A DNA stretch of 64,000 nucleotides from Desulfomonile tiedjei. GTDB lineage: Bacteria > Desulfobacterota > Desulfomonilia > Desulfomonilales > Desulfomonilaceae. The position numbers and the translations under genes are program-made. The stretch covers positions 21,880-85,879 of the forward strand of contig JACRDG010000099.1 in the NCBI GenBank assembly GCA_016218715.1, read 5' to 3'. The notes below the pieces were generated by a model. The model saw only the letters and a list, made by a program, of their open reading frames with translations, had not been told where the DNA came from and searched no databases. Of the stretch, positions 19,801 to 25,568 are shown in pieces (within the stretch, counting starts at the first letter, position 1; every line of letters starts with the position of its first letter).

Positions 19801-21954
19801 GAACTTTTCCAGGGCCGTGGCCTGCGCCCCGCGAGCGGCCTCAGCGTTACCCAGATTCGTAAGAATGTCGGCTTCTCCCTTTCGGTCCGACAGATCGCGA
19901 TAAATGGCCAGAGCCTGATCGAGATGCTGCACACCGTCCACGATGCGGTTCCTGTGCCGAAGGACGTTGCCGGTATTGGCGAGGTTCGCCGCGTGCCCTC
20001 TACGGTCCCCGATCCCCTTGGCCAGGTCGAGCGCTTTGTTGAAGTATTCGAGCGCCTTGTCGTGGTCGCCGACGTGCTTATAGTAGACACCCAAAGCTGT
20101 CAAATCCCGCCCTTCGCCGAACCGGTCGGACAACGCCCGATGGCTTTCCAGCGCCTGCAGAAAAGCCTTTTCAGCCAGATCCCTGCGCCCCTGCATTTCA
20201 TAGGCGAGCCCGCTTAGATGGTCACAGTCGGCCATGGACCGGCGGTCGTTCAGCTCACCGAACTCGGCACGGGCGTCCTTCGCGTCCTGGAGTGCCCGCT
20301 CCGAATTGTCCCGGGAGAGACGGAAGCGCGCGAGAGCCAGCCGAACCGCGGCTCGGGAGCGACGATCCACACCGGCCTTCACGTCCTCGACCGCTTCCTT
20401 GAGCAGCTTCGCTGCGGTTTCCGGATCCCCGGTGCTGCCGTGCATCTCCGCCAGCAGAGCGCGCGTCAGTGCAGCCTGGTTGCGATCGTGGACCCTCTTG
20501 GACACTGCGAGGGATGCATCCGCATATTCCAGTGCCTTATGGACGTATCCCTGGCGGAAATAGACCTCACCGATCTGACGAAGCGCGGCAGCCTCACCGC
20601 CCTGAACCGACAAACTCCGGAACTCGTGCAGGGCCTTGCCAGCCAGCGCCAGTGCAGACTCGAACTTGGCCCGATCCGCCTCCAGGCCCGCCAGCCTGAG
20701 GCGAACGCGCGCGACCATGATGGCGTCCCCGGCTTCCTCATACAGCCTCAGCGCGGCGTTGAGGCTGTTGGTGGCCTGGGCCGCCTTGCCTTCGGCTGCC
20801 AGGGCCATTCCACTGACGAGCAACGGCAACGCGCTGTTCCCCGCGTGTGGTTCGCCGAGGAGCGCCTTCCCTTCATCCAGGGACTTCCGGCTCGCAGCCA
20901 GATCTCCCTGGAGTTGGTCGATGTATGCAAGTCGAAAGAGGGTTTCCCCTACCTCTTTTGCACTATTGGCATCGCGATAGAGTTTCAACGCCTTCGTGAA
21001 ATTGGCCTTCGCAGCCGAATAGTCCGATCGGGACAAATGGGTCTCGCCGACGAGCAGATTTATCCGGGCGGATTCTGTCTGGTTGGAATCCTTGGCGAGA
21101 AACGTCAGGGCACGGTTGAGCGCGGCGAGCGCCTCGCCGTGCTTGTGGAGCCGGAGCAGGCAGGTCGCCATGTTCTCCAGGAGCTTCGGTTTTTCCGCTG
21201 CCTCTGATTCTGGGAGCAGCTTCAGAGCCTCATCGAAGGATTTTATTGCTGCCGGATAGTCGGCCATGGCCATCTGGATGCGGCCTGTCAGCAGGTAGTC
21301 GAGACTTCGGGCTCTGGCGTTTTTGAGGGTCTTGTTCAGGTCGATGGCGCGGTTCAGGTATTCCAGGGCCTCTTTGTCCTTGCGGAGCTGGTGGGAGACA
21401 CGCGCCAGAGCCGAAAGCACCACTGCCGATGCCTTCTGATCCTTGGCTGCCGTGAGCTTTTCCAACGCCACTTTGTATGCCTCGAACGCTAGGGTGTGAT
21501 CTCCATTCTTCTCAAGCTCTGCCGCGCGATTCAGCATCGAAGCGAGGTCTTCCACCGGTCGCTTCTCCGGGGCCGGCTCCGCTGTCGAGCTTGGCTGTGC
21601 TTGAATGGTGGAGGGGTCTTCTTTCTGCACTTCAACCGTCGGACCTTGCTCGGGCGGAGTCTGCGCCGAACTGGGTTCAGGCTCGGGGCTCGGCGCAGGT
21701 GCCTCAGGGACTGGCTCGGGAGCACGCGCCGGACGAGACCAAGGCTTGACGGGAGCATCGTGCAGCCTCCTGGGCCCGGGCGCCTCTCCCCCGCCCATGA
21801 GGGCTTCAATGCGTGTTCCGCCGAAAACCTCCGTGTCATCGGGTTCCGCGAGAACTCGTTCCGGGTAGACAGCGCCGGCCACCAGCAGGCACGCGCACGC
21901 CGCCGCAGTGGCAAAATCTACGTATCTGAACCTTTGTTGGAAGAATCGAATCAT
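16867..21954 (-). CDS. Exported TPR-repeat protein with C-terminal CHAT (caspase-like) peptidase domain, ~1695 aa
   Basis: RBS GAAGGAA before ATG at 21954; N-terminal hydrophobic export signal, Pro-rich linker, many TPR motifs (e.g. YFNKALDLAKGIGDRRGHAANLANTGNVLRHR), CHAT His/Cys motifs YIHLATHG and LVVLSSCLTGG. Confidence 0.9.
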   Translation of the reverse strand: MIRFFQQRFRYVDFATAAACACLLVAGAVYPERVLAEPDDTEVFGGTRIEALMGGGEAPGPRRLHDAPVKPWSRPARAPEPVPEAPAPSPEPEPSSAQTPPEQGPTVEVQKEDPSTIQAQPSSTAEPAPEKRPVEDLASMLNRAAELEKNGDHTLAFEAYKVALEKLTAAKDQKASAVVLSALARVSHQLRKDKEALEYLNRAIDLNKTLKNARARSLDYLLTGRIQMAMADYPAAIKSFDEALKLLPESEAAEKPKLLENMATCLLRLHKHGEALAALNRALTFLAKDSNQTESARINLLVGETHLSRSDYSAAKANFTKALKLYRDANSAKEVGETLFRLAYIDQLQGDLAASRKSLDEGKALLGEPHAGNSALPLLVSGMALAAEGKAAQATNSLNAALRLYEEAGDAIMVARVRLRLAGLEADRAKFESALALAGKALHEFRSLSVQGGEAAALRQIGEVYFRQGYVHKALEYADASLAVSKRVHDRNQAALTRALLAEMHGSTGDPETAAKLLKEAVEDVKAGVDRRSRAAVRLALARFRLSRDNSERALQDAKDARAEFGELNDRRSMADCDHLSGLAYEMQGRRDLAEKAFLQALESHRALSDRFGEGRDLTALGVYYKHVGDHDKALEYFNKALDLAKGIGDRRGHAANLANTGNVLRHRNRIVDGVQHLDQALAIYRDLSDRKGEADILTNLGNAEAARGAQATALEKFSAALAIQRQIQDSRGAATNLTSMGRVYLAKGDLKNATTSLDEAAKMNKRINNQAGEMAILTEQAMLERAKGNASGALSSLKKAMSLARSLNEGRALSSIRLKMATVLEDAGEYAKALALLQETLTEMRQQGDRQGELWALSGIAVVQVKTEDYETALPNLHKALKLLSELGLPASQSTDLHYYLGEIYEGFRDFERALEHYHKALTSCQTHGNYSDLAKIDDRIANVYYMTEDYAKAKDFFEDALRLNTELRDLEKQKSELIRLGDILSKLGDPEAALKRHQQALAITRDTKDERTEARVLTRMGTLYQVLGRPRVALDSYREASEIRTKIGDRRGVNENLLQMALVTSILGGFDAAVADLKRAFVISQNSEDRSMLWKAYFIMGRALEEKNSLGEALESYRKAITILEAMEADIVEELDEDDFIFGGKNSLFETTLRVMMRLARKDPEGAYDAQALRIVEKLKAAEFENVLAKINVSAFSDLPKELLIKEKSLKLGLRKLHSRLAAELSRVHPDQAQVKKILDERRLKEDAFRKLKDRLTKEYPSYADLRFPKPISVHQLQKDVIRPEEAILVYMVTRARTYLFAIDKNRFHAHSIQYPSKEMERDIETLIKPLHRSDTPSNWDPSVAHRLYSRLIAPVEYFLAAKKAVVVVPHGPLASLPFEILVSSKSHAGKRFWSASDRPTYLVENYAFSYAPSASVLSNVRARKHEKEPGWSLAAFGDALYTDPTKTKEPNPGADRLLTTVTHTTRPSRTAELRSLPGARREISEIAKLMGGPTQVYFGDQATESLFKKADLSRYSYIHLATHGVLVSGSGKFQQQPAILFSLFGDRENDGFLQLGEVFGLKLNSDLVVLSSCLTGGSPYTAEGDGILALSRAFLFAGTDSVVLSLWQVNDDSTAKLFIDMYRNLSDGSKTEALRRAKLALLSNPATSHPFYWAPFVLMGEWTVAFPPSHLKPDQQRMRFQGVSAWRKLLSM

Positions 21955-23016: not shown

Positions 23017-23213
23017 GAGGCTGTTGCGTAACGCAATGCTTTCCCGACATCGTGGCACGATGGTGTCGATTGCCGCAGTGACTCGTCAATGCCGTCACCT
23101 GAAAAGCTAAGTATGTAAGCATCATAGGAGCTTCCCAACCGAAGCCGGGTGTCCACTTATCCGCTGATGTGCCATCATTTCTCCGATGCGCGGGGTTAAG
23201 CGGCAGGCTCCTA
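23017..23213. repeat. ~197-bp dispersed intergenic element, copy 1
   Basis: Aligns without gaps over most of its length with 40921-41118 (GAGGCTGTTGCGT.ACGCAATGCTTTCC ... CACCTGAAAAG ... ATAGGAGC ... GGCTCC.AG). Confidence 0.75.
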
Positions 23214-24035
23214 GTCATCGGTCGTTCCCAAGCCGGCGTTCACTGGTCCTCTTTCGTCGGCAATCCGCATCATGTTGCTTATCTTACGAAAGATGCCGCG
23301 GACGATCTTCACGTCCCGATCGTCCATGGCTGCGCTATTAAAGATACGCCGGACGTCGCGCATCATCCGCAACGGGTTGGCGGGGTCCAGAAATCCTGCC
23401 CGAATGAGAACGCTTTCGATGTGTTGATACATGTCCTCACGCGCCTCGACGGACGCAGGGATCAACTTCTTGGCCTGAAAGTGAACCGGCACGGACGCGG
23501 CCTTGAAGATCTCGTACGCGATGACCGCCGCGGCATGCGCCACGTTCATGGACGCAAACTCCTCGTTGGTCGGAATAATCAGGTGATGGGTGCAGAGCTT
23601 CATCTGTTCGTTGGTGAGCCCTCTCGATTCTCGTCCGAATACGCACGCCACGGGGCCCGCGAGGGCGCTCTCCAGCAACTCGGGGATCACCTCCGTGGGA
23701 GCGCGAGCCGCGACCCGTTTCCCTCCGAGTCTCCCGGACGTGCCTACCGACATCACCGTGTGCCCGAGCGCTTCCTCGAGGGTTTCGCAGAAGCGAGCCC
23801 TTTCGACGATGTCGTAGGCGCCGGAGGCCCGAGAAAACGCCTCAGTTTCGGGTCCACAATCGGTTGAAGAAACGAGAGTAAGATTCTGCAAGCCCATATT
23901 TTTCATGACACGCGCGACCGCTCCAATGTTCCCGGCATGTGTGATCCCGACCATGACAAACTGCACGTTCTCCAGTGCCTCCACCCATTGGGAGTGGATT
24001 CTGAACCCTCTCTGGATGCGTCTGGACGGCCTCAT
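23211..24035 (-). CDS. SpoU/TrmJ-family RNA methyltransferase (start uncertain)
   Basis: VQFVMVGITHAGNIGAVARVMKNMGLQNLTLV, VFGRESRGLTNEQMKLCTHHLIIPTNEEFASMNVAHAAAVIAYE. Confidence 0.85.
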   Translation of the reverse strand: MRPSRRIQRGFRIHSQWVEALENVQFVMVGITHAGNIGAVARVMKNMGLQNLTLVSSTDCGPETEAFSRASGAYDIVERARFCETLEEALGHTVMSVGTSGRLGGKRVAARAPTEVIPELLESALAGPVACVFGRESRGLTNEQMKLCTHHLIIPTNEEFASMNVAHAAAVIAYEIFKAASVPVHFQAKKLIPASVEAREDMYQHIESVLIRAGFLDPANPLRMMRDVRRIFNSAAMDDRDVKIVRGIFRKISNMMRIADERGPVNAGLGTTDD

Positions 24036-24301
24036 TGCAACGGGGGCGCCTTCCGTGAAATCCAAGCGATTACCGGCAGCCGCGTCACTACACTGACGGC
24101 TCACGCTGGAGTTGTCTCCAAAATAGTTAAACGGTATCAGCATGTTAACGGTAATACCCGCGGCGCGCAAGCCGTGGGGGCTACGCGGCACCGTAGTATC
24201 CTCATGTCCTATTGTCAAGGGATATCAAATGAAAGGAATTGCTTCTTAGTGCAGAGGATGAAAAGGAGGTTTCGATGGTTGCGCAAGCCTATTTGCTTTC
24301 A

Positions 24302-24373: not shown

Positions 24374-24871
24374 TCAGTCGATTTTCTTGAAGGATGAGCC
24401 CTTGGCCTGGCAGATTGGGCACCGTTCCGGCGCTTCATGCTCGACTGTGTACCCACACAGCGGACACACGTAATATGAGTATTGCTCTTGAGCAGATCCT
24501 AGACTGTCGAGCAGCACTTTGTACAGCTCCGCGTGGACCTTCTCGACTTCATTGGCGTACTCGAAGGTACGGAGGGCCTGCTTGTTTTCTTCGGCTTTGG
24601 CAGCCTCGATCATCTCCGGATACATGTGCTCGAACTCATGGGTCTCGCCCGCGATGGCTACTTCGAGATTCTCTTTCGTGGTCTTTATCCCCTTCAAGGC
24701 CTTCAGATGGTTGTGCGCGTGAATCGTCTCCGCCTCCGCGGCTGCCCGGAACAGTCTGGCAACCTGAGGATGCCCTTCCTGATCTGCCTTGACCGCGAAA
24801 GCAAGATACTTGCGGTTGGCTTGCGATTCTCCGGCAAATGCTTCCTTTAAGAATTCTTCAGACTTGGACAT
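24374..24871 (-). CDS. Rubrerythrin
   Basis: EAFAGESQANRKYLAFA, AAEAETIHAHNH, ETHEFEHMYPEM, C-terminal rubredoxin-like YVCPLCGYTVEHEAPERCPICQAKGSSF. Confidence 0.95.
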   Translation of the reverse strand: MSKSEEFLKEAFAGESQANRKYLAFAVKADQEGHPQVARLFRAAAEAETIHAHNHLKALKGIKTTKENLEVAIAGETHEFEHMYPEMIEAAKAEENKQALRTFEYANEVEKVHAELYKVLLDSLGSAQEQYSYYVCPLCGYTVEHEAPERCPICQAKGSSFKKID

Positions 24872-25062
24872 TGAACCTCCCCTTTCTCTCATTGGAGTGA
24901 TCTGCGGCAGCGACTGCGGTAAACGGCAGGGCTGGGTGCGTCAGAAATCGGTCATCAGGGCAATGGCCGGGATGCAGAACCGAACCGCCCGATGCCGCAG
25001 CGTTTGCCCGAATTTCTGTGACGTCCGCTATAGAAGGCCTCATCGCTTCTTGTTTGGCAGCC

Positions 25063-25221
25063 TCACCCGGAGGCCATGGATACCCCGATCACCGTGCCGA
25101 TCACAACGGCTACCACGGGGTTGCACCAGAGCGCTCAGCCGACCCCCGCATTGGAACTGATCAGATAGAGACCAAATCCTGCAGCCGCGCCGACGATTGC
25201 GCCGATCAATGCTTTCATCAT
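25063..25221 (-). CDS. Candidate selenoprotein: small two-segment membrane protein with in-frame UGA (DUF6132-like)
   Basis: RBS GAGGGAGG before ATGATG; translation MMKALIGAIVGAAAGFGLYLISSNAGVG-(TGA)-ALWCNPVVAVVIGTVIGVSMASG*; TGA at 25135-25137. Confidence 0.55.
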
Positions 25222-25568
25222 TGCCTCCCTCGATTTGACGAAACCGCCGGCTTTTGGTGACCGGATCGCGTACAACCAGTAGAGGACCATGCTGGGCAGT
25301 CCCCCTGGCTGCGCTGGAAAGACCGTGGCTTCCGCAGCGGGGTTTCCGGTACGTTTCGCCATTCCTCACCGAGGCAGTTCGCTTCAGTCATTCTATCAAG
25401 ATGGACATGGGGCCGCAATATGGTGGACCGCTTTGAAAACTGAGACAGAGTTGTAATGACTTGAACGTTCCCCGACCCTATTATATGACCGGAGGCCGGG
25501 GCGCTTCAGCCGAGACACGGATGGCTGCGCAGGAGTCAGTGCAAAGGGGCTGCTGGGAGTGAAGGAAC

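Follow-up and report, generated by a model that had tools for sequence, protein, structure and literature searches.

We describe a gene for a very small membrane protein in Desulfomonile tiedjei (assembly GCA_016218715.1, contig JACRDG010000099.1), found within a stretch of 64,000 nucleotides (positions 21,880 to 85,879 of the contig; hereafter the window). The gene lies on the minus strand at positions 25063-25221 of the window, encodes 52 amino acids forming two membrane helices, and is interrupted by one in-frame UGA at 25135-25137. As the best explanation of the whole, at a probability of about 0.8, we propose that it encodes a membrane selenoprotein whose selenocysteine insertion sequence (SECIS) is a hairpin over the stop codon (element B), with a second helix (element A) serving as a folded spacer between this hairpin and the UGA. 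By comparative sequence analysis we show that the UGA is conserved, that coding continues past it, that the selenocysteine machinery is complete and that both helices covary; from this we infer the roles of B as the binding site of SelB and of A as the spacer.

A conserved UGA within a small membrane protein gene

The reading frame (MMKALIGAIVGAAAGFGLYLISSNAGVG-U-ALWCNPVVAVVIGTVIGVSMASG) is preceded by a Shine-Dalgarno-like sequence (GAGGGAGG, 25224-25231, minus strand) and opens with ATGATG, the second ATG (25216-25218) being the start in most homologues. The first UGA falls at residue 29 (hereafter UGA-29), and the frame closes at a second UGA (25063-25065), which is UAA or UAG in other families and contributes to the 3' side of element B. 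On re-reading the sequence, the frame, both UGA codons, the ribosome binding site and the double start were all as the initial annotation had described them, and the open reading frame list does end at the first TGA, in line with standard annotation. The second UGA was considered as a further selenocysteine codon and ruled out, because the codon is TAA or TAG in other families and conservation does not extend past it.

The initial annotation had put the gene forward as a candidate selenoprotein, to be judged by its homologues, by the sel genes and by conservation downstream of the TGA, whose loss it took as speaking against the idea. When 198 related genomes were searched by translation with read-through, 20 loci in genomes other than that of the window matched at E < 1e-3 over nearly the full length, well beyond what chance would give, and all of them had a single internal TGA; the next matches, from E = 0.003, were unrelated or had no TGA at the site. 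With a profile search of 395 Desulfobacterota genomes, every match with E < 0.003 likewise has exactly one TGA at this place, and three further members came from class searches around two other families. TAA or TAG at the site of the UGA was seen in no clear homologue of the 198- and 395-genome searches. In a scan of the named-genome collection, for which a subset of the full alignment was the query, the gene occurs in the window's own family, the Desulfomonilaceae (Desulfobacterota/Thermodesulfobacteriota), in Syntrophaceae and other deltaproteobacterial metagenome-assembled genomes (MAGs), and in one MAG labelled as Armatimonadota.

The proteins share the core G-x3-G ... U-x3-C-[N/H]-P ... 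G-x3-G, in which a Pro and a Gly past the UGA are invariant and the Cys nearly so, and protein-like sequence past the UGA is conserved in five families at a low ratio of nonsynonymous to synonymous substitution rates (dN/dS). The median dN/dS is 0.176 before the TGA and 0.160 after it, the variability of codon positions (entropy) is similarly alike on the two sides, and no constraint is seen past the second stop; we conclude that the segments on both sides of the UGA are translated together as a single protein.

The machinery for selenocysteine insertion is present in the window genome, with SelA (590 bits), SelB (384 bits), SelD (370 bits) and tRNA-Sec (71 bits), as are fdhA genes in which the TGA is followed by ordinary SECIS hairpins. 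With an in-frame TGA of its own, the selD of this genome (L164) is itself a selenoprotein gene, carrying the SECIS hairpin GUCCAGG-GGA-CCUGGAC. Among the other genomes bearing the gene, G064 and G097 have SelB and no tRNA-Sec above the cut-off. Only some genomes have, besides their main SelB, a second one adjoining a second tRNA-Sec-like gene (G005:C1:3562734-3564838 and G085:C36:23373-25389). With a conserved TGA, constraint past it, and the machinery alongside ordinary fdhA and selD selenoprotein genes, the window gene almost certainly encodes a selenoprotein, as the initial annotation had supposed.

A hairpin over the stop codon and a helix in front of it

Bacterial SECIS elements are described by a consensus in which a loop of the form N-G-[G/U]-N-N lies 16-37 nucleotides (nt) from the UGA (PMC13188914). 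The hairpin GCAAC...GTTGT, which the initial annotation had placed just past the UGA as the SECIS, keeps all five pairs in only 2 of the 37 homologues; the conserved G-loop hairpin is found further on instead, at about 66 nt from the UGA and, in most genes, across the second stop. In the window this element B (GGCCUC-CGGGU-GAGGCU) occupies positions 25059-25075 of the minus strand, with its loop GGG at 25066-25068, and across the family it is a hairpin of 4-8 base pairs (bp) with a G loop beginning between +64 and +67, counted from the UGA. Under a uniform rule (at least 4 bp, at most one G-U pair, a G within the first two loop positions) such a hairpin is present near +66 in 37/37 genes, and the same rule applied to the ordinary range of 16-37 nt retrieves it in 26/26 fdhA genes, the stretches of which are too short to test +66, and in all five genes of the DUF6132 type discussed below.

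The covariation of element B is pronounced. Its four central pairs are standard in all 34 hand-aligned genes, with exchanges of C-G for G-C, C-G for U-A and U-A for C-G, and the first loop G is likewise present in 34/34, followed by G or U. In an alignment of 31 sequences, the pairing of B reaches 92.2%, whereas the best register obtained by sliding gives 58.1% and none of 500 shuffles attains the level of B, and B exceeds a null of synonymous recoding at z = 8.0. The constraint is also visible in the codons themselves: Leu codon 22, in the stem of B, is TTA in 23/23 cases as opposed to 31/213 elsewhere in these genes, GG directly follows the stop codon in 33 of 34 genes, and the second stop matches the base that the stem requires, UGA for G in the Desulfomonilaceae and mostly UAA for A elsewhere. 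A 2-nt insertion in one gene (L019) enlarges the loop and leaves the stem intact. The loops found in B (A-GGU-U, C-GGG-U, A-GUG-U, A-GGA-U, G-GGA-C) resemble in their N-GG-N-N form those of SECIS elements in the same genomes (fdhA, U-GGC-A and GGUCU; selD, G-GGA-C), and all of them fit the published pattern. B differs from the bacterial consensus in its distance of +64 to +67, in lying over the stop and in the extra helix before it, the distance being about 23 nt only with A folded. A signal at or past the end of the coding region recalls the 3' untranslated region SECIS of archaea and eukaryotes; B, however, is small and of bacterial type, with neither the archaeal GAA_A bulge motif nor the eukaryotic GA quartet (PMC13188914).

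Element A is a long stem-loop beginning 12 nt past the UGA (25081-25123, minus strand; +12 to +54, a span of about 43 nt with its tip near +33). Its closing helix is 82.9% paired, with two-sided changes in four of seven pairs, and stands above the synonymous-recoding null at z = 8.7, or z = 7.5 for two-sided changes at wobble positions. Together A and B hold 40 two-sided changes where 17.4 are expected, each exceeding random synonymous recoding by 8-9 standard deviations. The fold energy for the window gene is -8.7 kcal/mol, the other genes ranging from -2.8 to -13.8 against a published threshold of -7.5 or below. No match to the RNA elements was found in Rfam.

We suggest that UGA-29 would be decoded as selenocysteine through SelB and tRNA-Sec, with SelB binding hairpin B by its N-G-[G/U]-N-N loop some 66 nt past the UGA, the 3' side of the hairpin containing the true stop and the first bases after it. 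With the ribosome at the UGA, element A would still lie ahead and be free to fold on itself; the point at which the messenger enters the ribosome with the UGA in the A site would, by the usual ribosome footprint, be about where element A starts. Once folded, A would loop out about 43 nt and leave 11 nt on its 5' side and 12 nt on its 3' side, so that B would effectively stand 23-24 nt from the UGA, which is normal bacterial spacing.

Several observations weigh against this proposal. The loop of B, starting at about +66, violates the published bacterial spacing rule (PMC13188914), and a weak G-loop hairpin does occur in the ordinary range in 16/37 genes, at scattered positions. In a few genes of the Desulfomonilaceae the outer pairs of B are broken; A is the weaker of the two elements, its inner part is not conserved, and some of its core pairs (CC/GG) are forced, because the Pro and Gly codons are themselves conserved. 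The 82-nt region as a whole is no more stable than shuffles (fold-energy z = 0.09), so that it is covariation which carries the case for the RNA. SelB was not found in one gene-bearing genome (G126, 89% complete), though tRNA-Sec is present there, nor was there a SelB match at E < 1e-60 in the Armatimonadota-labelled MAG, in which the contig bearing the gene (L110) may be mis-binned. Finally, the exchange of selenocysteine for cysteine is without example, as no Cys homologue was retrieved in the searches run: no Cys codon stands at the TGA site among matches with E < 0.003 in the 395 phylum genomes, for which the profile read TGA as C, and no Cys homologue came from tblastn against plasmids with a DUF6132-type member as query or from viral contigs queried with a Cys motif.

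Among other explanations, the one that fares best is a selenoprotein with an ordinary SECIS in element A, its loop 16-37 nt from the UGA, while B would serve another purpose such as termination efficiency or messenger stability. Element A does covary and has its tip in that range, and bacterial SECIS elements are very variable (PMC13188914), but the tip of A is without a conserved G loop, the SECIS-type loop sitting in B and not in A in 37/37 genes, and the G-loop hairpins at the ordinary site are few and scattered in comparison with the uniform recovery in fdhA and DUF6132-type genes. The position of B also argues against this reading, since in three members (L022, L069, L110) the stop falls 3-10 codons later and B stays at an unchanged distance from the UGA; the hairpin is thus not tied to the stop codon, and we regard an ordinary SECIS in A as unlikely. 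In L110, hairpin B lies entirely within the coding region. More doubtful still is that B is an intrinsic terminator or a stability hairpin associated with the stop codon, selenocysteine insertion being directed by something unseen: B does overlap the stop in 34/37 genes, but no T-run follows it, it lies inside the coding region in the same three members, and its loop is constrained (G in 34/34, then G or U) in a way that a terminator does not need. That UGA-29 is a true stop ending a single-helix peptide of 28 residues, the remainder being decayed or a separate frame, agrees with standard annotation and is highly improbable given the low dN/dS in five families, the invariant residues past the UGA and the lack of any TAA or TAG variant at the site among the clear homologues.

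Kinship with DUF6132 and a probable displacement of the signal

The initial annotation had likened the protein to the DUF6132 family (PF19628) of small two-helix glycine-zipper membrane proteins, a kinship that holds through intermediates only, and had proposed that a Cys of the CPITxNP type takes the place of the UGA there. The window protein itself has no match to PF19628 (Pfam cut-off 23.2 bits), whereas four distant TGA-containing members found with the profile of its family (L065-L068) score 31.8-48.8 bits. In both groups the first helix leads into a turn that holds the reactive residue, [N/S]P comes next and the second helix after it, both helices bearing GxxxG repeats; the window protein differs in its UxxxC-[N/H]-P motif, in having no KCxG before it and in its apparently displaced SECIS.

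Within 297 genomes of the phylum, all eight DUF6132 matches (L155-L162) contain one TGA, and most of these loci carry a hairpin at about +20 whose loop is GGUC and which lies in the codons for 'PWS' (CCCUGGUCAGGG-type). A DUF6132 match is also present in a Bacteroides control genome. DUF6132 of the sampled Desulfobacterota is apparently an uncatalogued selenoprotein family in its own right; it was not met in the selenium literature searched, although subscription papers were mostly outside that search and an earlier mention is possible.

In the window clade the +20 hairpin is absent and B is in place. Two loci mix both types and are therefore possible intermediates: L070 combines a window-like UxxxC protein with an ordinary hairpin, and L069 retains 'PW' with B already present. 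It thus seems that the SECIS has changed its place within a single family of proteins. In a tree of the 52-residue proteins the relocated and the ordinary types cluster, and the order of events and a single origin are not settled by it. We lean towards the more general view that a SECIS can work in bacteria from some 66 nt past the selenocysteine codon, over the stop and with an intervening helix shortening the distance, and that this layout arose from a relocated ordinary SECIS.

Neither the window family nor DUF6132 appears in the 2026 catalogue of 119 prokaryotic selenoprotein families, and the window protein is a previously uncatalogued membrane selenoprotein. It gave nothing meaningful in Pfam or NCBIfam, nothing in the PDB by sequence and nothing in PHROGs; a weak PHROGs match of one relative to a DNA methyltransferase was disregarded. 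The Cys a few residues past the selenocysteine recalls the LULAxC selenoprotein TsoA (NF045695) and other catalogued small selenoproteins, but the window protein and its relatives have no NCBIfam match.

Neighbourhood, possible function and significance

AlphaFold predicts a helical hairpin (helices 2-25, 29-32 and 35-51; confidence score, pLDDT, 85, for a small model), with U29 at the start of the short turn helix, a position usual for redox-active residues. Downstream on the same strand lie first a rubrerythrin gene (PF02915 and a rubredoxin-like domain; 24374-24892, minus strand) and then a gene for a SpoU-type RNA methylase (23211-24218, minus strand); the latter and a divergent O-methyltransferase gene (PF00891; 25569-26564, plus strand) are conserved neighbours in the Desulfomonilaceae. 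Elsewhere, four loci (L142, L146, L148, L149) have a thioredoxin gene in the same orientation whose end lies about 100 nt upstream, which suggests an operon; thioredoxin reductase lies directly downstream in two (L141 and L151, of G126 and G091), in a cluster that includes a sigma factor gene; superoxide dismutase is downstream of L139; and L110 has OsmC downstream and a CsoR-type repressor upstream. The most economical reading, which we offer tentatively, is a redox relay of the selenol/thiol type (UxxxC), anchored in the membrane and acting together with thioredoxin or with enzymes of peroxide and superoxide defence. What speaks for such a role is the motif and a set of neighbours that differ between families, and this we count against the proposal as a whole.

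Programs that search for bacterial selenoproteins expect the SECIS at 16-37 nt from the UGA, so that genes of the kind described here fall beyond their reach. If the proposal is true, the spacing rule would concern the effective, folded distance rather than the number of nucleotides, and the family would provide an example from nature, candidate intermediates included, of a recoding signal that has changed its place inside a gene. That selenocysteine is kept in every clear homologue found, in several families, points to an essential role of selenium chemistry in this very small membrane protein.
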